Assembly (NCBI GenBank): GCA_949740725.1
Contig: CATJIO010000095.1
Location: 22,078-86,077, forward strand
Reading direction: 5' to 3'
Origin: an uncultured Lachnospiraceae bacterium
Lineage (GTDB): Bacteria > Bacillota > Clostridia > Lachnospirales > Lachnospiraceae
Length of the DNA stretch: 64,000 bases
Below the pieces are notes generated by a model, which had not been told where the DNA came from, did not search any database, and saw only the letters and a program-made list of their open reading frames with translations. Each line of letters opens with the position of its first letter. The first letter of the stretch is position 1. The position numbers and the translations under genes are program-made. Shown here piece after piece: positions 453 to 13,959 of this stretch.

Positions 453-836
453 ATGATGGAGAAGAAAAAGATCACTGTGTTGTGCTATCAAAAGTGCACT
501 ACCTGCAAGAAAGCGTTAAAATGGTTGGATGACCAGGAGATTCTTTATGAGACGCGACCAATAAAGGAAAAAAATCCAACGAAAGAAGAGTTAAAGGAAT
601 GGTATCAAAAGAGCGGCCTGTCCTTAAAACGATTTTTTAACACCAGTGGAAATTTGTATAAGGAGCAGTCATTAAAGGATAAGCTGCCTCATATGACGGA
701 AGAGGAGCAGCTGGAGCTTTTGGCTACAGATGGAATGTTGGTAAAGCGTCCACTGATCGTGGCGGAGAATGTGATTTTGACCGGCTTTAAAGAAGCTGAG
801 TGGAAGAAGGCTTTTCAGAGAGAGGAAGAAAAATAG
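453..836 (+). CDS. ArsC/Spx-family thioredoxin-fold protein
   Basis: N-terminal CYQKCTTCKKALKWL (CxxC) and RPLIV near the C-terminus, as in the ArsC/Spx family. Confidence 0.85.
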   Translation: MMEKKKITVLCYQKCTTCKKALKWLDDQEILYETRPIKEKNPTKEELKEWYQKSGLSLKRFFNTSGNLYKEQSLKDKLPHMTEEEQLELLATDGMLVKRPLIVAENVILTGFKEAEWKKAFQREEEK

Positions 837-859
837 TATACAAATTTAGGAAGGAGAAG

Positions 860-3433
860 ATGATGAAGTATGTAATTCTGGGTGGTGTTGCCGCCGGAAC
901 AAAGGCGGCGGCGAAGCTGAAACGGTGTGATCGGCAGGCCGAGGTAAAGGTATTTACAAAAGGCAAGGATATTTCCTACGCTGGCTGTGGTCTTCCCTAC
1001 TATATCGGAGGGGATATCCCCACCAGAGATGGGCTGATCGTGAATACCCCGGCAAAGTACGCAGGGCTGACGGGAGTGAAAGTTTATACTGGATGTGAAG
1101 CAATAGGGGTAAATCCAGACAATAAGGAAGTAACATTCAAGCGGGTTTCCGGAGATACCTTTACAGAGGACTATGATAAGTTGATTATTGCCACTGGGGC
1201 GGTTCCTTTCGTTCCACCGGTAGAGGGCAGGGAGCTTCCTGGCGTATTCTCTGTGCGTACACCAGAGGATGCGGTGAATATCCGAAAATATATTGAAGAA
1301 AACCACTGCCGCAAGGCTGTGGTTTGCGGCGCAGGCTTTATTGGGCTGGAGGTGGCAGAAAATCTTATGGCCCAGGGGCTGGAGGTGACGGTAATCGATG
1401 CCATGCCTCAGATCATGCCCAATGCCTTTGATTGGGAGATGGCGGATTATGCAAAGCGCCAGTTGAAAAAGGCTGGTATGGGGATATTGACAGCTACAAG
1501 CCTTAAAGGTATTCGGGGAAAAGAGAAGGTAGAGGAAATTTTGACGGATAATGGCAGTCTGGCGGCGGATCTGGCGGTGATGGCCATCGGTGTCCGTCCG
1601 GCCACTGGATTTTTAGATGGATGTGGCCTGGAGATGATGAAAGGGACTATCCTGGTGGATGAGGAACTGCGGACGAATCTCCCGGATATCTATGGGGCAG
1701 GAGACTGCGCCATGGTGAAAAATGCGATAACAGGAAAACCCCAGTGGTCTGCTATGGGTTCCACTGCCAATTTGGCTGCCCGGGCTATGGTAAAGAGAAT
1801 GTACGGGGCAAAAAAGGGATATCAGGGCTGTATGGGCACAGGAGTGGTTCGTCTCCTTCCAGAGCTAAATGGAGGGAGGACAGGATTGACTGAAGCCCAG
1901 GCAAAAGCAGAGGGGTTTGAGACGATTTCAGTGGTATGCGTTCTGGATGACAAGGCTCATTATTATCCTGGGGCTTCCTCCTTTTTGGTAAAGATGACGG
2001 CGGAGAAGGACAGCCGCCGGCTGTTGGGAATCCAGGTGCTGGGGGCCGGCGCGGTAGATAAGATGGTGGATATCGCGGTAACCGGAATCTCTCAGAATAT
2101 GACCGTCGACCAGTTTGACACTATGGATTATGCCTATGCGCCGCCATTCTCCACCGCTATCCATCCTTTTGTCACTGCCTGCTACATACTGGAGAATAAA
2201 ATGGATGGAGTGTTGGAGAGCATGAGCCCGGCAGAGTATGCTGAGGGAGGCGCCGAGGGTTATCAGGTGTTGGATGTCCAGCCGGGACCATCCATTCCCA
2301 ATGCCCACTGGATTGATTTGGCAAAGGTGACCGGGCCGATTGAGGGACTGGAAAAGGATGCAAAGCTTTTGCTGGTCTGTGCTAAGGGAAAAAGAGGATA
2401 TTTCCTCCAGAATCGTCTGAAAGCCTGGGGATATACCCACACACGGGTGTTAGAAGGAGGCGTTACCTTTAATGAGGTAAGGGTTCCCCGGAATGGAACA
2501 AAGCTTTCCCAAGAAGAGATCAAGCGGGTAAAGGGGCTGGGATGTCTCCAGGATAAACGATATGATGATGTGTTTAATGTGCGGGTCATCACAAGAAATG
2601 GAAAGATTACGGCAAAGGAACAACAGCGGATCGCAGAAGCGGCGGAGAAATTCGGTTCAGGAGAAGTGACCATGACGACTCGGCTGACGATGGAGATCCA
2701 GGGAGTTCCCTATGAAAATCTGGATCCGGTTATGATATTTCTCAAGGAGGGAGGACTGGAAACGGGAGGGACTGGATCCAAGGTGCGTCCCATCGTTTCC
2801 TGTAAAGGAACCACTTGCCAGTACGGCCTGATCGATGCATTCGCCTTATCAGAAAAGCTTCATGAATTATACTACAAAGGGTATCACGAAGTTTCCCTGC
2901 CCCACAAGTTTAAAATCGCTGTGGGTGGCTGCCCTAATAATTGTGTCAAGCCAAACCTGAATGATCTGGGTATCATCGGCCAGCGAGCGCCAGAGATGGA
3001 CCGGACAAAGTGCCGGGGCTGTAAGATATGTCAGGTAGAAAAAGCATGTCCTATCCATGTGGCCAAAATGGAAGACGGGAAGCTTACGATTCCTTCCCAT
3101 ATATGCAACCATTGTGGGCGCTGTATAGGAACCTGTCCCTTCGGTGTGGTAAACGAAAGGATCGTAGGGTATCGAGTGTACATTGGCGGTCGTTGGGGTA
3201 AGCAGGCGGCAGAGGGGCGAATGCTGGATAAGCTCTTTATCTCAGAAGAAGAGGTGATTGACCTGACTGAGCGGGTAATCCTGTTCTATCGGGATGAGGG
3301 ACTTTCCGGAGAAAGGCTTGCCGATACCATCGCCCGGCTGGGATTCGATTATGTACAAGATAAGCTGTTAAATAGCAAAATTGATAAAAAAGAAATACTG
3401 AAGAAGACTGTAGTGGGAGGAGCTACCTGTTAG
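860..3433 (+). CDS. Multidomain CoA-disulfide-reductase-like flavoprotein + rhodanese-like + nitrite/sulfite reductase-like + 4Fe-4S ferredoxin domain
   Basis: SYAGCGLPYYIGG active-site region; VCAKGKRG rhodanese-like loop; SCKGTTC...GGCPNNC; two ferredoxin Cys clusters (CRGCKICQVEKACP, CNHCGRCIGTCP). Start chosen at ATG 860 after an AGGAGA RBS rather than 800. Confidence 0.85.
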   Translation: MMKYVILGGVAAGTKAAAKLKRCDRQAEVKVFTKGKDISYAGCGLPYYIGGDIPTRDGLIVNTPAKYAGLTGVKVYTGCEAIGVNPDNKEVTFKRVSGDTFTEDYDKLIIATGAVPFVPPVEGRELPGVFSVRTPEDAVNIRKYIEENHCRKAVVCGAGFIGLEVAENLMAQGLEVTVIDAMPQIMPNAFDWEMADYAKRQLKKAGMGILTATSLKGIRGKEKVEEILTDNGSLAADLAVMAIGVRPATGFLDGCGLEMMKGTILVDEELRTNLPDIYGAGDCAMVKNAITGKPQWSAMGSTANLAARAMVKRMYGAKKGYQGCMGTGVVRLLPELNGGRTGLTEAQAKAEGFETISVVCVLDDKAHYYPGASSFLVKMTAEKDSRRLLGIQVLGAGAVDKMVDIAVTGISQNMTVDQFDTMDYAYAPPFSTAIHPFVTACYILENKMDGVLESMSPAEYAEGGAEGYQVLDVQPGPSIPNAHWIDLAKVTGPIEGLEKDAKLLLVCAKGKRGYFLQNRLKAWGYTHTRVLEGGVTFNEVRVPRNGTKLSQEEIKRVKGLGCLQDKRYDDVFNVRVITRNGKITAKEQQRIAEAAEKFGSGEVTMTTRLTMEIQGVPYENLDPVMIFLKEGGLETGGTGSKVRPIVSCKGTTCQYGLIDAFALSEKLHELYYKGYHEVSLPHKFKIAVGGCPNNCVKPNLNDLGIIGQRAPEMDRTKCRGCKICQVEKACPIHVAKMEDGKLTIPSHICNHCGRCIGTCPFGVVNERIVGYRVYIGGRWGKQAAEGRMLDKLFISEEEVIDLTERVILFYRDEGLSGERLADTIARLGFDYVQDKLLNSKIDKKEILKKTVVGGATC

Positions 3434-3555: not shown

Positions 3556-4653
3556 TTACTGTACAACATCTTTTGTCAAAATGGAAACGCCGGTATCAAT
3601 GTATTCGGGAGCTACAGAGCCGCCATTAATTGCAGTGATAGCAGCATACATTCCTTCATAACCCATAACGTCAGGATTCTGAGCCATGGTGCAGATCAGG
3701 GCACCATCCTTGATCAGCTGAATAACAGCATCAGACTTATCCATACCAGCAGCGATAATGCTATTGCCTTCTTCAGCTACAGCATTGCCAACACCTACAC
3801 AGGAGCCTTCATTTGCACCGAAGAGAGCAACACAGCCCTGGGAGATAAAGTTAGCAGCTGCATCTTTAGACTTGGCTGCATCGCCGTCCGCGTACTGAGT
3901 TTCCAAAATCTCAAAAGCAGTGCCTTCGAAAGCGGAACGGAAGCCCTCGTCACGGTCAACGGTGGAGGTGGTAGCTGCGTTTACGGATACGATACCAATC
4001 TTGCCTTCCTCGATGCCCTTTTCTTTTAATGCAGCCAGAACCTGCTCGCCTGCGGTCTTACCAGCGGAGCGATTGTCGGTTCCTAATCTCTGTACACAGG
4101 GATAGTTGGCAAAGGAGTCTACCTGTACGATCTTAACGCCAGCTTGATCGGCTTCTTCAAGAGCCGCGGTGATGGCATCTGGTCCATTGGCGGAAACCAG
4201 AATCGCGGTAGCGCCGTCGGCAACTGCGTTATTTACACATTCAATCTGCTTTGCGTCATCCTTTACGTCCGGGGCAATCCACTTATACTCACAGCCTAAT
4301 TCCTCTGCTGCTTGCTGGCATCCCTTATCCATATTTACCCAATGCTGATCCATGGAGTCAATGGTAATTAATACTACCTTCTGTCCGGCTCCATCTCCCG
4401 GCTTTGCAATATCGCCAGTTTCTCCGGAAAGCATATCATTTGCGGCTGCAGGAGCCTCTTCCTTCTCTGCTTCGGTTTCCGGGGCTTCCTCCGCCGTGGT
4501 CTCCTCTTTGGCCTCTTCCTTTGCCTCGGTTGCCGCTGCGGTAGTGGTCTCCGTCGGAGCTGCCGTGGTTTCATTGGAGGATGAGGAACAGCCTGCCAAC
4601 AGGGTGGCTGCCATGGCTGCCGCCATCATAAGAGATAATGCTTTTTTCTTCAT
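3556..4653 (-). CDS. Sugar ABC transporter substrate-binding lipoprotein (RbsB-like)
   Basis: Signal/lipobox MKKKALSLMMAAAMAATLLAGCSSSS; periplasmic-binding-protein fold sequence; adjacent permease and ATPase. Confidence 0.9.
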   Translation of the reverse strand: MKKKALSLMMAAAMAATLLAGCSSSSNETTAAPTETTTAAATEAKEEAKEETTAEEAPETEAEKEEAPAAANDMLSGETGDIAKPGDGAGQKVVLITIDSMDQHWVNMDKGCQQAAEELGCEYKWIAPDVKDDAKQIECVNNAVADGATAILVSANGPDAITAALEEADQAGVKIVQVDSFANYPCVQRLGTDNRSAGKTAGEQVLAALKEKGIEEGKIGIVSVNAATTSTVDRDEGFRSAFEGTAFEILETQYADGDAAKSKDAAANFISQGCVALFGANEGSCVGVGNAVAEEGNSIIAAGMDKSDAVIQLIKDGALICTMAQNPDVMGYEGMYAAITAINGGSVAPEYIDTGVSILTKDVVQ

Positions 4654-4729
4654 AATACGATACCTTCCTTTCTTAAACCTTTGTTTTATTAAAAGCATAA
4701 ACTGCTTTTAAACGAAATGTCCATAGGCC

Positions 4730-5746
4730 TCAGGCTGCCTTGTGCTTTTTCGCCTTGCCCTTTCCGGTTCTCACGATTACATCCAGAAGAACCGCTACTA
4801 CAACGATGATACCGATAACAATGTTACGGATAGCTACCGGAGCGCCGGCAAATTGAAGTCCATTCTGGAGAACCCCCCAGATAGCAGCGCCGATGACCGT
4901 TCCCAGCAGGATACCAGATCCGCCTAATGTGGATACACCGCCAATTACCGAGGCAGCTACCGCGTACATTTCATAAGAAGTACCGGCATCCATTGTTCCA
5001 GTACCAGTAGATGCACAGGTAATCAAGCCGGTGATACAGGCACAGAAGGCAGAAACCACGTAAACGTAGATAATGGTACGACTCACATTAACGCCGGACA
5101 GCCTGGCTGCGTCAATATTGCTTCCTGTGGCATAGATATGACGTCCCGTCCGGGTGCGTCCCATAATATAGTTAAAAAATGCCCATACAATAATGGCAAT
5201 CCAGAATGCGCTGAAGATGCCGGCGATCTTTCCACTGTAGAAAAAGGTACGGAAGCCTTTGGCAGCTTCGCCGATGGAATCGGTATTGTAATTACCATTA
5301 ACAATCTGGGCAATACCTCTTGCGATGGTCATGGTTCCCAGAGTGGCGATAAATGGCGGCAACTGGCATTTGGAAACCAGGATACCGTTAATGTATCCCA
5401 CCACCAGACAGCAGATCAGGGTAATCAGCACAGCTACCCAGGGATTCACCCCATGGCACATCAGGGTGGCGCTGATCATACAGCTCATTCCCACCACAGA
5501 ACCAATGGAGAGATCGATATTGCCAGTAAAGAGCACAAAGGACTGCCCTACGCCGGTTAATAGAGTAGGCGCGATCTGGCGCAGCAGATTGGCGATATTA
5601 CGGTAGGTAAAGAAGTTGGGATTGATAAAACCAAACAACATACATAAAACCGCTAAACCAATGGTTACCGTGATTACCTGTCCCATGCCCCGCTGGGATA
5701 AAAATCGCTTTACCGGGCTGAGGTTTTTCTCACTTGCGTTACTCAT
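4730..5746 (-). CDS. Sugar ABC transporter permease (RbsC-like)
   Basis: Hydrophobic multi-TM protein, GNIDLSIGSVVGMSCM and ATGSN motifs typical of the RbsC family. Confidence 0.92.
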   Translation of the reverse strand: MSNASEKNLSPVKRFLSQRGMGQVITVTIGLAVLCMLFGFINPNFFTYRNIANLLRQIAPTLLTGVGQSFVLFTGNIDLSIGSVVGMSCMISATLMCHGVNPWVAVLITLICCLVVGYINGILVSKCQLPPFIATLGTMTIARGIAQIVNGNYNTDSIGEAAKGFRTFFYSGKIAGIFSAFWIAIIVWAFFNYIMGRTRTGRHIYATGSNIDAARLSGVNVSRTIIYVYVVSAFCACITGLITCASTGTGTMDAGTSYEMYAVAASVIGGVSTLGGSGILLGTVIGAAIWGVLQNGLQFAGAPVAIRNIVIGIIVVVAVLLDVIVRTGKGKAKKHKAA

Positions 5747-5780
5747 ATTTTCCTCCATATATCAAGCTTTTTGCTAAGAT

Positions 5781-7325
5781 CTATTTTTTCTCAAACTGGG
5801 TTGCCTTGGTTAAGATCTGGTCCTGGGTGGCTTCCCCTGCCATAAATTCTCCGGTAATCCGCCCGTCACACATAACCAGGATCCGGTCACTCATCCCTAA
5901 AACCTCCGGCATTTCCGAGGATACGAACATAACGCCGATACCGCTTTGCTTTAATTGATTCATCAGATTATAGATTTCAACCTTTGCCGCCACGTCGATT
6001 CCTCTGGTAGGTTCGTCAAAGATTACCACACGGGAATCTCTCGCCAGCCACTTAGCTACCACGATCTTTTGCTGATTTCCGCCGGAAAGGCTCCCTGCGT
6101 CTACCTGAGCATTGGGCAGCTTGATTTTTAGAGACTGGACAGACTGATCCACCATCTCCCTTTCCTTTTTCCGGTTCACCGTACCCAGGGGGCCGCTGCT
6201 GAGCATGTCCAGGTTAGGGAGGGCGATATTATCCGAAATACTGAGCCGAGTGCACAGTCCATCCTTCTTCCGGTCCTCTGGCGCGAGAACCAGTCCAGCC
6301 CGAATGGAATCAGAAGGATTATGGATGATTACCTCTTTTCCATCGATAAAGATCTGCCCGCTTTCCTTTGGGTCAATGCCAAAGATGGCCCGTGTGGTTT
6401 CCGTCCGTCCGGCTCCCATAAGCCCGGCGATTCCCACGATCTCCCCTTCATATAATTCTAGGTTTATATTCCGCACCAAAGGTCCGGCATTTAAGTTCTT
6501 TACCTCCAGAATCTTCTTACCCTTTTGACAGGATACATGGGGGAACTTTTCTTTGATTTCATGGCCTACCATATTGGCAATGATCTCATCCATCTTATGA
6601 ATATCGTAAGGCATCTCAGTGATGAAATGTCCGTCCCGCATAATAATTACCCGGTCTACGATGTGCTGCAGCTCTTCAAGACGATGGGATATGTACACAA
6701 TGCCGATTCCGTCTGCTTTCAGCTGATGGATGATTTTAAATAAATCGTCGATTTCCTTGGAGGTCAGGGCCGAGGTAGGCTCGTCCATGATTAGTACCCG
6801 GGCATTTTGAGAAAGAGCCTTTGCAATTTCTACCATCTGTTGCTTGGAGATGGCCAGATCGCTGACCTGTGCCTTGGGGTCAATATCAATATTTAATTTC
6901 TTCAGAATCTCCCTGGTTTCTTCATTCATCCGGTCATTGTCTAACCGTTCCTTTTTGACCAGCTCTCTTCCCAGAAAAATATTTTCTGCCACACTTAAAT
7001 GGGTGCACATATTTAATTCCTGGTGAATAATTGCCACACCAGCATCCTTGGCCTTGTTGGCGTCCCAATCCTTTACCAGTTTGCCAAATAAATGGATCTC
7101 TCCATCATCTCGCTGATAAACACCGGACAAAATCTTCATCAGAGTAGATTTACCAGCTCCATTTTCTCCTAAAAGGGCAAGAACCTCGCCGGAGTAGAGA
7201 TTAAAGCGCACATTATCCAGCGCCTTTACTCCAGGAAACTCTTTCATAATCCCTGTCATTCTTACCAGCTCTTCGCCCGCCGGCGCAGGAGTTCTGTTTT
7301 CTTCCATACCTGCTCCTTCCCTCAT
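5781..7325 (-). CDS. Sugar ABC transporter ATP-binding protein, double ATPase (RbsA/MglA-like)
   Basis: GENGAGKSTLMKIL, LIMDEPTSALT, SLSGGNQQKIVVAKWL, FDEPTRGID. Confidence 0.95.
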   Translation of the reverse strand: MREGAGMEENRTPAPAGEELVRMTGIMKEFPGVKALDNVRFNLYSGEVLALLGENGAGKSTLMKILSGVYQRDDGEIHLFGKLVKDWDANKAKDAGVAIIHQELNMCTHLSVAENIFLGRELVKKERLDNDRMNEETREILKKLNIDIDPKAQVSDLAISKQQMVEIAKALSQNARVLIMDEPTSALTSKEIDDLFKIIHQLKADGIGIVYISHRLEELQHIVDRVIIMRDGHFITEMPYDIHKMDEIIANMVGHEIKEKFPHVSCQKGKKILEVKNLNAGPLVRNINLELYEGEIVGIAGLMGAGRTETTRAIFGIDPKESGQIFIDGKEVIIHNPSDSIRAGLVLAPEDRKKDGLCTRLSISDNIALPNLDMLSSGPLGTVNRKKEREMVDQSVQSLKIKLPNAQVDAGSLSGGNQQKIVVAKWLARDSRVVIFDEPTRGIDVAAKVEIYNLMNQLKQSGIGVMFVSSEMPEVLGMSDRILVMCDGRITGEFMAGEATQDQILTKATQFEKK

Positions 7326-8629
7326 TGTGGGATATTTTGTAACATGGATTCAATCCGCAGACAGCATTCCATCATGGCCCGATCCGTGTGGTAAATACAT
7401 TTCCACTGATTTCCAGTATCCGGAATAAGTGGTGTGCCATTCCGGCTTAAAAGCTGTCTGGATTCGCCTGCTGTAGGATTATAGAAATAGATCTGATCAA
7501 ATTCCCACAGCTCCATAAACTTTTCCAGATAACGGGCATCTCCCGTTACCTCGTAAGCATCAAAAAATCCGGTAAGGGATTCGAAATTTTGCCACCATTC
7601 CTTATCGGTGACGATCAACCGTCCATCGTGGAGGCCATCCCGATAAATCCCGCCATACTGGTGATCCCAGCCGTTTGCTACCGTATAGTCTGCAAATTTC
7701 CTGGTAAGCTCTCTGGCAGGCGGCTGTCCTAATACCTCATAGGCCCGATTCAACAGCCAGGTCAGCTCAATATTGTGGCCATAGGAGGTGGTGTCCAGTG
7801 GATTTTTATTGGCGCTCTCCGGATCACGGTCATAGTTCCAGGTTCTTCGGATAGAGATGGCAGGCTTTGGCGTAAAGTCGATCTGGAATTGGTTTCTGCC
7901 GCACCAATAGTCATAGTCCACCATGTGGGTTAACACGACAGAGATGATTTCCTCCAGCGCCCGGCGGTGAACCTCTTTGCCGCTGGCCTCGTAAAGGGTG
8001 GTGTAAGCCTCCATAGTATGCATGTGGATATCCAGAGATTTTAAATCTCCACCATATACCCCTGGACTTTCCAGCGTCCAGTCCTCACGGAAATTTTCAA
8101 AGTATCCGCCATACCGGGTATCCGCCGCGTATTTTTTCAGGGCGTCGAAGGTGCGCTCAGCATAATCTAAGCCCCTGGGATCCTTGGTGGCAAGGTAATA
8201 TTCTGCCAACGCATAAATAGCAAAGGTCTGCCCATATACCAGCTTGCCGTTATCCAGCACCAGGCCCTTTCTATCGGTCACCCAGGCCCAGCCGGTGTGC
8301 TCTTTGTCCCAGAAATGGTCAATAAAAAAGGTTACTCCCTGCTCAAGAGCCTGCCTGCAATCCTCTTCCCAGCCATAGCGCTTCGCCAGCCCGTTCCGCA
8401 AAAGAGCGGAAAATCCCCAGATCATCCTGGTCTGAGTCACAATCATCTTATCGGTAGGCGTTAAAACAGCCAGTTTCTTCATGGGATTTCCTTCCCCGTC
8501 AAAGCAAACCAGATAGCCGCCGTATTCTCGGTCAATACCATGAGAAAGCCAGAAAGGAACACTTTTTTTCATAAAGCCTTCCATTTCTGACTGAATAGTT
8601 AACAGTTTTTTTGCTATGTCTTTCTCCAT
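7322..8629 (-). CDS. AGE-family epimerase (N-acylglucosamine/cellobiose 2-epimerase-like)
   Basis: Length and motifs of the AGE alpha/alpha barrel (YGGYLVCFDGEG, NIELTWLLNRA, KEWWQNFESLTGF); 4-bp overlap with the downstream ATPase gene. Confidence 0.85.
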   Translation of the reverse strand: MEKDIAKKLLTIQSEMEGFMKKSVPFWLSHGIDREYGGYLVCFDGEGNPMKKLAVLTPTDKMIVTQTRMIWGFSALLRNGLAKRYGWEEDCRQALEQGVTFFIDHFWDKEHTGWAWVTDRKGLVLDNGKLVYGQTFAIYALAEYYLATKDPRGLDYAERTFDALKKYAADTRYGGYFENFREDWTLESPGVYGGDLKSLDIHMHTMEAYTTLYEASGKEVHRRALEEIISVVLTHMVDYDYWCGRNQFQIDFTPKPAISIRRTWNYDRDPESANKNPLDTTSYGHNIELTWLLNRAYEVLGQPPARELTRKFADYTVANGWDHQYGGIYRDGLHDGRLIVTDKEWWQNFESLTGFFDAYEVTGDARYLEKFMELWEFDQIYFYNPTAGESRQLLSRNGTPLIPDTGNQWKCIYHTDRAMMECCLRIESMLQNIPQ

Positions 8630-8668: not shown

Positions 8669-8696
8669 ATTATAGCAGATGAGACATTTTTTGTAA
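8669..8696 (-). promoter_or_regulatory. Candidate sigma-A promoter for the epimerase/transporter genes
   Basis: On minus strand TTACAA - 16 nt - TATAAT in the 99-bp gap upstream of the epimerase gene. Confidence 0.45.
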
Positions 8697-8728
8697 GGGG
8701 AGATTATTCAGAATTAGGTAGATATTTT

Positions 8729-10177
8729 TCAGAAGATTCGGCTGATAATCCCATATTCTTCCGGGTGGAGAGAAACGATATTTTGCCCGTTTTTGATGAC
8801 TTCTATCCGGTCTGACAGGTACAGGCAATCCGTAATGTAATTAGTCAAAAGGAGAATGCTAATCCCAGATTCTTTTAGTGCCTTTAACCGTTCCAGAATA
8901 TAATTCCTGCAACGCATATCTCCATAGGCAAAAGGCTTTTTTATAATTAGAATTTTCGGATGAAACAGGCTGATTTTATTGTAGATAAGCCCATATTTTT
9001 CTCTCAAGGTCAGTCCGCCAATATGCCGTTCGTCCACCAATTCCCCGGCTTCCCGGTAGTATTCATTGCGGACACTGTGAAGGAAAGCTGGCTTTAATAT
9101 GCTTTTACGCAGCTTCCGATCCAGGAGGAAACTGAGGTTTTCCAGGTAGGACATTTCCTGAAAAAGGAAGGTCTCTGTAGGATTGTCATCTAGGATAATC
9201 ATGCTCCGATCTAGACAGTCTCCTTTCTGCTTTCGAATATCCCTGCCCTGGCAGAGGATGCTTCCCTCATAATCCGTTTCCAGTCCGGTCAGGATGTCTA
9301 ACAGCTCATCAGTGACCTGATTATCCGAGTCCAGCAGGGTGATACATTCCCCTGGCCCAGCGCTTAAATTTAAGTGCTGGATGGCAATGGAGGAGAGATT
9401 GTCCAGCTGAATAATGGGATCCCCAGCCGCCTGGCAGCGGTATGCCTTATACCCTTCAAAAGAGAGCACGTAAGGGGCAAAGGCGGTCTGATGGAAATCC
9501 TTTTTTTCGAAGATCCGTTTTATCCTGCCGCTGGAAAACAAAGCAATGCGATCACAAATTTCAAACATAATCCAGTGATGATAACAGATGTACAGAGAGG
9601 CTACATTTAGCTTTTTCAGCTTTAAGAGAAACTGATGAAACTTCTCATAGTCTGCCTGGCTAATGATTTTTTCTGGGCTTAAAAAAATAAGAAGGCGGCA
9701 TCCCATCAGGTAAGCCTTGGCGGCCTCTACAATGATCCGTTCCATGGTGGATAACCGAGATACCCGCTGATTTAAATTGATGTCAAAAGAAAGTTCCTGG
9801 AACACCCGAAGGGCCTGTTCCATAAGCACGGTTTCGTTGATTACATACTTTCGAAAGCCTGGACGCATCACAAAAATATTGTCCGCAATGGAGAGATCCT
9901 GGATGAGGGAACTTTTTTCATCAATGGTGTAAACCTTATTTACAGTATAATCGCTGTTTAAATAGCTGTTAACCAGCCGCCCTTCAAAATAGATTCTTCC
10001 AAAATCAATGGGAAGATTTCTGGCAAGAAGCTTTAACAGTTCGCTTTTCTCCCGATCATTGACTGAGACCAGGCCCAGGATTTCTCCTTCACAAATATAA
10101 AAGGAAAAGTTGTCCAGATAAGTAGCGCCGTCTTCCTGCCTTGTCACATTTTCAAATCGCACAATTTCTTTTTTCAT
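8729..10177 (-). CDS. Degenerate RbsA-like double ABC ATPase (predicted pseudo-ATPase)
   Basis: Overall RbsA-like layout, but Walker A reads SVNDREKSE, signature RLSTMER, Walker B RLLIFLSPE; second half LLDSDNQVTDE and ILIIKKPFAYGD. Confidence 0.8.
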   Translation of the reverse strand: MKKEIVRFENVTRQEDGATYLDNFSFYICEGEILGLVSVNDREKSELLKLLARNLPIDFGRIYFEGRLVNSYLNSDYTVNKVYTIDEKSSLIQDLSIADNIFVMRPGFRKYVINETVLMEQALRVFQELSFDINLNQRVSRLSTMERIIVEAAKAYLMGCRLLIFLSPEKIISQADYEKFHQFLLKLKKLNVASLYICYHHWIMFEICDRIALFSSGRIKRIFEKKDFHQTAFAPYVLSFEGYKAYRCQAAGDPIIQLDNLSSIAIQHLNLSAGPGECITLLDSDNQVTDELLDILTGLETDYEGSILCQGRDIRKQKGDCLDRSMIILDDNPTETFLFQEMSYLENLSFLLDRKLRKSILKPAFLHSVRNEYYREAGELVDERHIGGLTLREKYGLIYNKISLFHPKILIIKKPFAYGDMRCRNYILERLKALKESGISILLLTNYITDCLYLSDRIEVIKNGQNIVSLHPEEYGIISRIF

Positions 10178-10184
10178 CGTTGGC

Positions 10185-11189
10185 TTAATCCTTAACTACG
10201 GGAAGGGTGATCTCTGCGTCGGTGCCTGCATTTGGCTGGCTGTAGATATAAATTCCATATTCTTCTCCAAAGAGAAGCTTGATTCGGTTATTCACATTGC
10301 GAACAGCAATGCCATTTCTGCTGCTGCCCTCGGATGCATCTTCCAGACGAAGGGAGCGGAGAGTCTCATTGATCTTCTTTACCTGTTCTTTCCCCATACC
10401 GATTCCATCATCGGAAATCATGATAATCAGGTGGCAGTCGGTCATGGTGATCTTTATGGTCAGCTGCCCTGTACCGATCTTCTGCTCAAGGCCGTGATAA
10501 ATAGCATTTTCCACAAGGGGCTGCAGGGTAAGTTTTGGTATCTGACAACGGAGAACCTCATATTCATCATCACAGTCATAGCTGACACTGAATTTTAGCT
10601 TATCACCGAACCGAAATTGCTGAATGTAATAATAATTTTCCACATTTGCCAGCTCCTCCTCCAGGGATACCAGGTTATTTACCTGAGAGATGGTATAGCG
10701 GAAATAGGTAGCTAGAGCTTCGGTCATTTCTGCAATGGTGTCCACTCCTGCGATTACCGCCTCCGCTCTGATCCCCTCCAATGTATTATAGAGAAAATGA
10801 GGATTGATTTGGTTCTGGAGAGCCAGGTATTCTGACTGCTTTTTCGAGGTGCTGATCAGCTTATTCTTGTCCAAAAGGACAAAAAAACGCTGGAACATTG
10901 CCTGCTCTTCTGAGCTTAAAGGATATTCCAGGTTATAAATATCCTCATAGCTATCTCCCTTGGCAAACATAGATTTTATCCGATTATTCAGCATTAGCGG
11001 GCGATAAATTTCCCGGTAACCGTAGTACATTAAAAAGAGGAAAATAACGGTCAACACCGTGGAAAAAATTTTCACTTTAAGGTATGCGCTTTCCTGAATA
11101 AAAATAGCAAGAAGGAGGGCCAACATAAAAATCATGGAGGCGACAGCAAAGTAGCGGATTCGGTTTAAGAGATATCTCTTGTTTCTCAT
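10185..11189 (-). CDS. Sensor histidine kinase, YesM-like, with minimal extracytoplasmic region
   Basis: LQNQINPHFLYNTLEGIRAE (His_kinase), PLVENAIYHGLE (HATPase N box), DDGIGMG; two TM helices separated by about 10 residues; ATG 11189 overlaps the response-regulator stop by 4 bp. Confidence 0.9.
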   Translation of the reverse strand: MRNKRYLLNRIRYFAVASMIFMLALLLAIFIQESAYLKVKIFSTVLTVIFLFLMYYGYREIYRPLMLNNRIKSMFAKGDSYEDIYNLEYPLSSEEQAMFQRFFVLLDKNKLISTSKKQSEYLALQNQINPHFLYNTLEGIRAEAVIAGVDTIAEMTEALATYFRYTISQVNNLVSLEEELANVENYYYIQQFRFGDKLKFSVSYDCDDEYEVLRCQIPKLTLQPLVENAIYHGLEQKIGTGQLTIKITMTDCHLIIMISDDGIGMGKEQVKKINETLRSLRLEDASEGSSRNGIAVRNVNNRIKLLFGEEYGIYIYSQPNAGTDAEITLPVVKD

Positions 11190-12811
11190 GAGTAGATCTT
11201 CCTGTATTCTCCCGGCTTTAATCCGGTATATTTGATAAAGCACTTGGTAAAGTATTTCACATCCCCATAACCGACTTTTTCGCAGACCAGATGCATTCCA
11301 TCATTGGTAGTAACCAATATTTTTTTTGGGGCTTCCATTCGGGCCGACTGAAGGAATTCCAGGAAAGAGACGCCGGTTTCTTTCTTAAAAAGAGTACTGA
11401 AATAATTGGGGGCAAAGCCTGCCATGGCGCTGACCTCTTCTAAGGTTATGGGCTTTTGATAGTTATCTTGAATATATTGTTTGGCCAGCCGGATAGGTTT
11501 ATTATCCTCAGAGCGTTTTACTTCCACCGCGTTTTTAAAGGAGGTGCAGATGGTATTGGCAAGATGGCTGAATAACCGCTGGATATTGGGACAGTCGTCA
11601 GCCGACTGGTTAAAGGTATCCATGAATTTCTTCTCGTTTTCGATATTTATTTTTTTATTTTTCATGTAGAAGAGGTAAAGGTTGCACACCTCTTTTGACA
11701 GCTGTAGAACCTCATAACCAGTGACCTCGGGAGTCCCTTGAAGCTGCTCCATCAGGCAATAGATTACTGTCCGCATTTCTACTACATTTAAGCTTTCCAA
11801 CGCCCGCTCAAAATCTTTATTAAAGCGATGGAAATCGTCGCTGTTGATAAAATGATCGTTGCGCTGCTGCTGGAAATCAATGGTTTCAATTACCCGCCCA
11901 GTTCCATTGATAATCCGCTGGTGGAGCATAAATCGGGCCTGGGAAAGAGAGGATCGGATTTGATGTCCTCTGTTCCAAGGGGCAGCTTCTCCGACACCGA
12001 TGGTAATTTCAATTTCCTGGATAATGGATTCCAGAGTTTTCAGCGCATCCAGCATCTGGCGGATTCCCCTGCGGACATTTTTCAACGCATCCTCATTGTA
12101 ATTCATTAAAATGTAGGTGGTGGAACATTCCACATAAATTTCATAGTCAAAGCAGTCAGTGGCTAAAAGCTGGGCAGTTAAGTCTGTGGCTTTGTTGGCC
12201 AGAAAAGTGAGATTGCTGTCATCGTGGCCGATATTGTCAAACTTAATTCCGATCACTTGAAATAATCCTTCACGGAAATGGAAGTGATACTGGCTGTTTA
12301 CCACGCTCATGGACTGACTGGTTTCCTGGTGTAAGCTGCTGTAAATAATTTGTGAGATAAAACTGGTGCGAAGCCTGCCGGCGTCATTTTTTAGTACCAG
12401 GCGGACTCGCTCCTCGAAGCTGAGCTGTTCATGCTTTTCTTTATAAATGGCGACGATCTTTATTAAGGTATCCCGCAGTTCTTCTTTGCGGATGGGCTTT
12501 AAGAGATAATTCCGGACGCCATAACGGATGGCAGTCTGAGCGTATTCAAAATGCCGGTATCCACTGATGATGATGATCTCAGTATCTGGGGAATGTTCTT
12601 TTATTCTAGCGATCAGCTCCATGCCGTCGATTCCCGGCATGCGGATATCGGTAATAATAATTTCTGGCTTATGCTCCATGGCCTCTTTGATGGCAGATAA
12701 TCCATTAGAAGCAGTAGCTACTACCTGAAGCCCTAAATTTTCCCAGTCTACCAGCTTTAAAATCAGCTGGCATATTTTTTCTTCATCATCTGCGATTAAA
12801 ACCTTCAGCAT
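11186..12811 (-). CDS. Response regulator with AraC-type DNA-binding domain (YesN-like)
   Basis: MLKVLIADDEEKICQLI..IITDIRMPGIDGMELI receiver; C-terminal AraC HTH (ITLEEVSAMAGFAPNYFSTLFKKETGVSFLEFL). Confidence 0.93.
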   Translation of the reverse strand: MLKVLIADDEEKICQLILKLVDWENLGLQVVATASNGLSAIKEAMEHKPEIIITDIRMPGIDGMELIARIKEHSPDTEIIIISGYRHFEYAQTAIRYGVRNYLLKPIRKEELRDTLIKIVAIYKEKHEQLSFEERVRLVLKNDAGRLRTSFISQIIYSSLHQETSQSMSVVNSQYHFHFREGLFQVIGIKFDNIGHDDSNLTFLANKATDLTAQLLATDCFDYEIYVECSTTYILMNYNEDALKNVRRGIRQMLDALKTLESIIQEIEITIGVGEAAPWNRGHQIRSSLSQARFMLHQRIINGTGRVIETIDFQQQRNDHFINSDDFHRFNKDFERALESLNVVEMRTVIYCLMEQLQGTPEVTGYEVLQLSKEVCNLYLFYMKNKKINIENEKKFMDTFNQSADDCPNIQRLFSHLANTICTSFKNAVEVKRSEDNKPIRLAKQYIQDNYQKPITLEEVSAMAGFAPNYFSTLFKKETGVSFLEFLQSARMEAPKKILVTTNDGMHLVCEKVGYGDVKYFTKCFIKYTGLKPGEYRKIYS

Positions 12812-12954
12812 ACCTGTATCCTTTCCGTACCCTTTGCTTCTGTTTGCGGTCAGATGCTCATAACAACAATCTTTTCCTACGTAACAGTTTACCATTTTTA
12901 AAACGCTTTTACCAGAGGTTTACTTTGATATTTCTACACTTCAAAATTATGTAC

Positions 12955-13872
12955 TTACAAGACTAACTCATCCAGGGAGGCAAAACGATACCCCATTTCT
13001 TCCCATTTCGAGAGAAGTTCATCCAGGATCTGTCCGTTAGTCTTGGAGGTGCTGTGGAGGAGAACAATGGCGCCAGGATGGATCCGCCCCAGAAGCTTTT
13101 GGAAGGCTTCCTCTTTAGTGGGCTGTTTATCCTCATACCAGTCCACGTATGCCAGGCTCCAGAAAAAGGTCTGATATCCCATGTCACTTGCCATTTTGAG
13201 ATTTGTTTCGCTGTATTTTCCCTGAGGAGGCCGGTAATACTTTTTCATGGTCTGCCCAGTGGTCTGTTGGAATAAGGATTCCAGATCGGTCAGTTCCTTC
13301 TCAAAGACTTCTTTTCCGGAGATTTTCGACATGTCTGGGTGGTGATAAGTGTGGTTTCCTACATTATGTCCCTCCTCCACCATACGTTTTACCAGATCAG
13401 GGCTGGTTTCCAGATAATTTCCTACTAAGAAAAAGGTGGCAGGAGCATTGTGCTTTTTCAGTGCATCTAGGATTGCGGCGGTATTCCCGTTTTCATACCC
13501 AGCATCGAAGGTTAGATATAGAACCTTATCCTCGGTATCCTCAGCATAATAGGCGTGATACTGCTTGAGATAATCCATAGAAGCATTGGCTACAGGGGGC
13601 TTTCCCTCTTGCTGAAAGCTTAAACCCCAGTTCCCTTCCTGAGAAGCAGGAAGAATGGCATCACCGTCAAGAACCGTCTGGACCTCAGTGGAATCCAGGC
13701 TTTGCCCGGTCAGAGAGGTTACTGCGTAAGCTGCCAGATTCCCAATAACAAAAGAAAAGAGAAATAGTTCTGCAGCAGCAACGGCCCTTTTTAAGCTGCG
13801 TTTATGTTCGATATAGCGGGAAAAACGTCTGGAAAAATAAGAAAGTTTAAAAAAGGGGAAAAAACGGCGCAT
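12955..13872 (-). CDS. Polysaccharide deacetylase (NodB homology, PdaA-like)
   Basis: LYLTFDAGYENGNTAAILDALKKHNAPATFFLVGNYL, VGNHTYHHPDMS, YYRPPQGKYS, GAIVLLHST. Confidence 0.92.
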   Translation of the reverse strand: MRRFFPFFKLSYFSRRFSRYIEHKRSLKRAVAAAELFLFSFVIGNLAAYAVTSLTGQSLDSTEVQTVLDGDAILPASQEGNWGLSFQQEGKPPVANASMDYLKQYHAYYAEDTEDKVLYLTFDAGYENGNTAAILDALKKHNAPATFFLVGNYLETSPDLVKRMVEEGHNVGNHTYHHPDMSKISGKEVFEKELTDLESLFQQTTGQTMKKYYRPPQGKYSETNLKMASDMGYQTFFWSLAYVDWYEDKQPTKEEAFQKLLGRIHPGAIVLLHSTSKTNGQILDELLSKWEEMGYRFASLDELVL

Positions 13873-13959
13873 AGATCGATGTCCTGATTTTCATAGGTTT
13901 GGTTCATTGTATGTAAACCTGATGGAAATTATGACGACAGAAAGATAGGCAACTGGGCA

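Follow-up and report, generated by a model that had tools for sequence, protein, structure and literature searches.

A catalytically dead RbsA-like protein as a putative signalling partner of sensor-less YesM-type kinases

How a histidine kinase devoid of any extracytoplasmic domain receives its signal is the question raised by a gene cluster of an uncultured Lachnospiraceae bacterium (assembly GCA_949740725.1, contig CATJIO010000095.1), in the 64,000-nucleotide stretch analysed here, hereafter the window. In this cluster, the genes for a YesN-type response regulator, a short YesM-type kinase and an RbsA-like ATP-binding cassette (ABC) protein follow one another beside the operon of an RbsABC-type sugar importer. 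An earlier note on this DNA had proposed that the ABC protein, encoded at 8729-10177, is a dead ATPase that couples transport to the kinase. We conclude with high confidence that this pseudo-ATPase is a dedicated partner of the kinase, and we weigh below how it might inform it.

Motif reading showed that the catalytic motifs of the pseudo-ATPase are all lost, in both halves. In the first nucleotide-binding domain (NBD1), Walker A reads VSVNDREKSELL, Walker B RLLIFLSPE and the H-loop LYICYHHW, while in NBD2 Walker A reads LDSDNQVTDEL, the signature GLTLREKYG and Walker B ILIIKKPF. These strings agree with the RbsA-like architecture and altered hydrolysis motifs described in the earlier note, and add the loss of the second Walker A and of the second signature. 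The RbsA of the window, at 5781-7325, had been taken as an intact control; this holds for its canonical NBD1 site, but its second Walker A carries a K-to-R substitution (GLMGAGRTE), a form of degeneracy described before in RbsA (PMC11466899). Since intact RbsA is already altered there, only one canonical site, made of the NBD1 Walker A, Walker B and H-loop with the NBD2 LSGG, was available to lose, and in the pseudo-ATPase this single site is gone on both faces (NBD1 Walker A and Walker B, NBD2 LSGGNQQK). The two fused ABC domains of RbsA-type ATPases are present: the protein still matches Pfam ABC_tran (PF00005, 49.6 bits), its AlphaFold2 model is a complete fold with two ABC domains (predicted local distance difference test score 86.1, predicted template-modelling score 0.81), and Foldseek returned two-NBD ABC proteins as top matches. 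The pseudo-ATPase falls far under the cut-off of every NCBIfam RbsA-type model (best 124.8 bits versus 699), but this alone is no evidence of degeneracy because the intact window RbsA also misses the equivalog cut-offs (587.6 versus 745). Judged from its motifs, the pseudo-ATPase of the window species in all probability has no ATPase activity.

The loss of these motifs is shared by a large family. A scan of genomes with the single pseudo-ATPase sequence gave few relatives, with Erysipelotrichaceae as the label of one matched record, and was replaced by profile searches, which recovered members also outside Lachnospiraceae, elsewhere in the order and the class and in other classes of Bacillota, with open reading frames (ORFs) in dozens of genera. 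Relatives with 30-39% identity to the window protein are spread over Lachnospiraceae, and its identity to every RbsA is about 20-24%. With the first profile, family members scored above 430 bits and intact RbsA proteins at most 288; three matches at 23-25% identity (L078, L079, L146) were rejected as intact RbsA. Scoring of the Walker and H-loop residues of homologues, as proposed in the earlier note, showed catalytic residues lost across 55 core members: 0-3 of the five NBD1 residues are left, whereas each of 69 RbsA proteins has all five, and the two Walker B residues of NBD2 are missing from 54/55 core members and from none of the 69 RbsA. Varied residues also take the place of the NBD2 signature glycines and, with few exceptions among core members, of the NBD1 H-loop histidine. 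In a tree, the pseudo-ATPases form one group separate from RbsA, and the 43-row group containing the window protein has 100% support in the Shimodaira-Hasegawa-like approximate likelihood ratio test (SH-aLRT); because the method was a quick one and branches among outer members are long, the branching order of the latter is not relied on. Compared with the 92% identical orthologue of a same-genus genome (L080), the ratio of nonsynonymous to synonymous substitution rates (dN/dS) is 0.040 for the pseudo-ATPase, much like the 0.035 of its kinase; the regulator has 0.039 and RbsA 0.025. These substitution rates show that the catalytically dead form is under strong purifying selection.

The kinase and the regulator carry the YesM/YesN domain set, His_kinase (PF06580) with a HATPase kinase domain and a receiver-AraC regulator. 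The large extracytoplasmic sensor domain typical of the YesM family is not present in the window kinase, as seen from both topology and AlphaFold. Its hydrophobic helices (residues 15-31 and 39-55) lie about 7 residues apart and are joined in the AlphaFold model (helices 7-33 and 36-76) by a 2-residue turn, in keeping with the almost adjoining transmembrane helices reported in the earlier note. Among 78 short kinases, the gap between the helices is 3-20 residues (median 9.5), versus about 264 in large kinases. The catalytic residues of the window kinase are intact, and the phospho-acceptor His, N-box and G-box residues are invariant in the kinase profile alignment (A2). The ORFs also confirmed the spacing noted before, 7 bp between the kinase and pseudo-ATPase genes and a 4-bp overlap of the regulator and kinase genes.

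The neighbourhoods of 47 clear pseudo-ATPase homologues, window included, were then read. In 46 of them, the gene immediately upstream, in the same orientation, encodes a short kinase, and the regulator precedes the kinase wherever the contig reaches. The exception, L136 in genome G900, is an unlinked pseudo-ATPase; a regulator-kinase-RbsABC cluster lies on another contig, with the usual place of the pseudo-ATPase empty. As the contigs stand, the kinase and pseudo-ATPase of G900 are separated, yet both retained. In the reciprocal search, the kinase profile was run against 298 genomes of the family, and 53 further loci were read among the matches, which were of two kinds, high-scoring short kinases and ordinary kinases, about 600 aa long, whose scores did not exceed about 250 bits. 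In the pooled loci, 97 kinase/ABC pairs were recognised, with the ABC protein directly downstream in 95. Misfits were L218 and L217 (order pseudo-RbsB-RbsC-regulator-kinase), L214 (a half-length ABC protein before the regulator), L058 (a 293 bp gap and an interrupted kinase ORF) and L262, a short kinase with no ABC partner. The last was dropped as a partnerless short kinase: since a 337-aa ORF just upstream is a sensor half, the two ORFs are probably the pieces of one ordinary kinase. None of 19 sampled ordinary large-sensor YesM kinases (about 600 aa) had an ABC-type partner of this kind within flanks of about 4 kb per side; the sole exception on the large-kinase side is L204, where a large-sensor kinase is followed by a half-intact ABC protein, which falls on the RbsA side of the tree. 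These genomic data show that the pairing of short kinase and pseudo-ATPase is near-obligate, and exclude the lack of synteny that the earlier note had named as grounds for refutation. It had also proposed to test whether every homologue lies beside an RbsABC operon; an intact RbsA was found in the fetched flank of 79 of the 97 triads. Several of the control kinases adjoin an RbsB-type gene instead, a frequent neighbour of large-sensor YesM kinases (L227-L244), while short kinases adjoin the dead ATPase; the RbsB-type protein and the dead ATPase would be two alternative recycled transporter parts that serve one purpose.

The best evidence that kinase and pseudo-ATPase are physically coupled comes from a natural fusion. 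In a two-contig genome (G187; L211:4418-6268, minus strand), a single 616-aa ORF joins a kinase (29-369) to a dead N-terminal NBD (400-614), and a sister species carries the same fusion with 87% identity (L225:4475-6313, plus strand). In a third species of the genus (L226), the regulator, kinase and pseudo-ATPase genes are unfused, in the usual order beside RbsABC; the two halves of the fusion are 40% and 35% identical to their unfused neighbours. The predicted fusion proteins are strong evidence for direct coupling, and suggest that the first ABC domain is sufficient for it. The regulator beside the fusion in L211 and L225 is short, 253-285 aa versus about 535. Taken together, synteny, fusion, purifying selection and co-retention when unlinked strongly support the kinase-coupling part of the adaptor role proposed in the earlier note.

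The features of the cluster and of the adjoining operon are collected in Table 1. The YesN-type regulator is predicted to control the adjacent transporter operon, which we consider likely. The promoter-like site upstream of the epimerase gene is a possible start of this operon and a candidate target of the regulator; its evidence is weak because the scan found 23 sites in the region, versus 15.2 (sd 3.9) in shuffled sequences, and both promoter and terminator scans of the region were near chance. Elsewhere, L066 encodes a 611-aa sugar-binding protein with two tandem periplasmic-binding domains (12112-13947, minus strand), and the RbsB genes of L064, L065, L132, L133 and L143 encode proteins of about 600 aa, a length suggesting the same tandem domains. 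The window's own genome (C169) encodes another RbsA-like protein (L023:6845-8212, minus strand), whose second Walker B has ANQPT in place of DEPT and resembles NupO-type degeneracy. Outside the cluster, positions 800-3433 (plus strand) of the window encode an 877-aa protein with a pyridine nucleotide-disulphide oxidoreductase, a rhodanese-like domain and a nitrite/sulphite reductase module with 4Fe-4S sites.

Table 1. Coordinates of the signalling genes and of the neighbouring importer operon in the window.
Feature	Position	Strand	Basis
YesN-type response regulator, receiver + AraC DNA-binding domain	11186..12811	-	PF00072 + PF00165/PF12833
Short YesM-type histidine kinase, no extracytoplasmic domain	10185..11189	-	from ATG; PF06580 + PF02518
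Pseudo-ATPase, two RbsA-like ABC domains	8729..10177	-	482 aa; motifs, AlphaFold, Foldseek
Promoter-like site CTTACA-17-TATAAT with TG, between pseudo-ATPase and epimerase genes	8669..8697	-	consensus match only
Cellobiose/N-acylglucosamine 2-epimerase-like enzyme, first gene of transporter operon	7322..8629	-	PF07221; best NCBIfam EpiA, below cut-off
Intact RbsA-type ATPase of importer	5781..7325	-	PF00005 182 bits, canonical NBD1 motifs
RbsC-type permease	4730..5758	-	PF02653
RbsB-type sugar-binding lipoprotein	3556..4698	-	PF13407

What, then, would the pseudo-ATPase tell the kinase? Because it is the conserved, constant partner of a kinase that lacks an external sensor, it probably informs the kinase of imports. 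We propose that the gene encodes a dedicated signalling subunit and not a transport motor. This descendant of an RbsA-type ATPase, unable to hydrolyse ATP, would be the cytoplasmic partner of the sensor-less kinase and would bind it directly, while its docking subdomain would read an RbsC-type permease from the cytoplasmic side, either one encoded next to it or else that of the neighbouring importer. The pseudo-ATPase would change its pose in response to a sugar-loaded binding protein or to the state of the transporter and would thereby switch the kinase; once phosphorylated by the kinase, the YesN-type regulator would switch the downstream epimerase-RbsABC operon. As a whole, permease reading included, we consider this explanation moderately probable.

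The evidence for the permease contact is indirect. Q-loop-to-signature subdomains are the parts of ABC importers that dock the permease. In the family, the two Walker A motifs retain 0.41-0.43 of the information content of RbsA, and both of these subdomains 0.89-0.90. A permease-like gene directly follows the pseudo-ATPase in L190, L198, L210, L255 and L261 (PF02653 confirmed in L198 and L210), and L070 and L257 have a permease gene after the pseudo-ATPase plus a binding-protein (RbsB) gene. These data lend support to the pairing with an RbsC-type permease suggested in the earlier note. Evolutionary distances in the core clade show that the pseudo-ATPase tracks both the kinase (partial r 0.78 given RbsA) and RbsA (0.60 given the kinase), correlations that are only suggestive since linked genes share inheritance. 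Several points weigh against a permease-reading subunit: this shared inheritance confounds the coevolution values, and the kinase signal is weaker among outer members (partial r 0.30); no intact RbsA lies in the fetched flank of 18 of the 97 triads, contig ends explaining some of these cases but not all; conservation of the docking subdomain would also fit docking to the kinase alone; and nucleotide binding may persist in subclades because some members (L196, L201, L206, L208) keep the NBD1 Walker A. On balance, that the pseudo-ATPase reads a permease is an idea we favour only narrowly.

The retained Walker A of these members also fits the strongest competing explanation, in which the pseudo-ATPase is a kinase subunit whose altered pocket senses a ligand from the cytoplasm (a nucleotide or a sugar phosphate), with no permease contact. 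Fusion and synteny show coupling to the kinase only, and the fused form retains only the first NBD. By contrast, it is the nucleotide pocket whose conservation is mostly lost and the docking subdomain that is conserved, and most copies lie beside an importer, several with their own adjoining permease gene, which makes this explanation unlikely. Conservation of the docking subdomain and the proximity of RbsA in most triads could also point to a protein that is mainly a transport brake, contending with RbsA for RbsC and sharing no more than its regulation with the kinase. However, the constant partner is the kinase and not RbsA, the pairing holds without RbsA in the fetched flank (L131, L191), and in two species the pseudo-ATPase is fused to the kinase; we regard a brake as improbable.

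The proposed signalling subunit appears to have been a working enzyme once. In L251 (6572-8023, plus strand), the gene next after that of a short kinase encodes an ABC protein with near-canonical motifs, which may represent the ancestral state of the dead partner, and intermediate motif states occur in L252, L204, L196, L201 and L206. Partners of this kind, intact or half-intact, are rare and occupy the place of the dead protein, which makes a working ATPase its probable ancestor; we infer from these loci that such an ATPase first became the kinase partner and lost hydrolysis later. The earlier note had held that homologues with intact motifs in close relatives would indicate recent decay. Proteins with such motifs were indeed found at the usual place of the pseudo-ATPase, in L251 and in part in L204 and L252. 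All are uncommon members at the outer edge of the family, and so look like ancestors or side branches, not like signs of recent decay. The near-canonical L251 and the complete fold of the window protein might suggest that the pseudo-ATPase is active through unrecognised, non-canonical motifs; this is very improbable, given that the NBD2 Walker B residues, NBD2 signature glycines and NBD1 H-loop histidine gave way to varied residues as described above. A decaying RbsA duplicate, a pseudogene on its way out, would explain the loss of every catalytic motif, but was rejected as practically negligible on the low dN/dS, the spread across Bacillota, the distance from every RbsA and the SH-aLRT support. 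More tentatively, the family might represent a widespread class of sugar receptors, in which a dead ABC ATPase, joined at some loci by a dedicated permease and binding protein, builds a non-transporting receptor complex in the membrane that directly switches a sensor-less kinase, having arisen from a working ATPase that served the same kinase before hydrolysis was lost.

If true, the proposed mechanism would explain the signal input to a large group of sensor-less YesM kinases and give a role to many genes probably annotated as ordinary sugar transporter ATPases; the fusion and the series of intact-to-dead partners make mechanism and origin directly testable. No description of a dead-ABC-ATPase/kinase module was found in the literature searched, whose coverage excluded subscription papers. 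Like RbsA-type ATPases with fused NBDs, which have one degenerate site (PMC11466899), the pseudo-ATPase has the two-domain ABC fold and shares their origin; unlike them, it has lost the remaining catalytic site, is about 22% identical and has the kinase as constant partner. In three-component systems such as CuaDSR and XylFII-LytS, a clostridial two-component system beside a sugar ABC operon uses a recycled transporter part as co-sensor (PMC10384115), an arrangement echoed in the window. However, the part recycled there is an extracellular substrate-binding protein that needs a large outside kinase domain, absent from the AlphaFold model of the window kinase, whereas the window module recycles the cytoplasmic motor. 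In the Bce-type module (BceAB-BceS-BceR), a kinase with two transmembrane helices and almost no outside loop, as in the window, is informed by an ABC transporter whose genes are controlled by the regulator (PMC10314905). By contrast, Bce senses the cycling of a working detoxification transporter with an active ATPase of its own, whereas the window kinase is of the YesM/His_kinase type, the importer is RbsABC with a PF02653 RbsC-type and not a Bce-type permease, and the extra ABC protein is catalytically dead. In PstSCAB-PhoU-PhoR, the link between an importer and a kinase without canonical outside sensor is a distinct cytoplasmic protein that itself transports nothing (PMC6978683), the very place proposed for the pseudo-ATPase; that linker, PhoU, is unrelated to ABC ATPases and the motor PstB is active, whereas the candidate adaptor has an ABC and not a PhoU fold (AlphaFold, Foldseek). 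The window module would be a case of transporter-coupled two-component sensing, akin to Bce and Pst-PhoU in how the kinase is informed while lacking defining features of each. The known systems of this kind (Bce, Pst) use active transporters; a conserved dead ABC ATPase standing as kinase partner would, if confirmed, constitute a new way of reading the state of transport.

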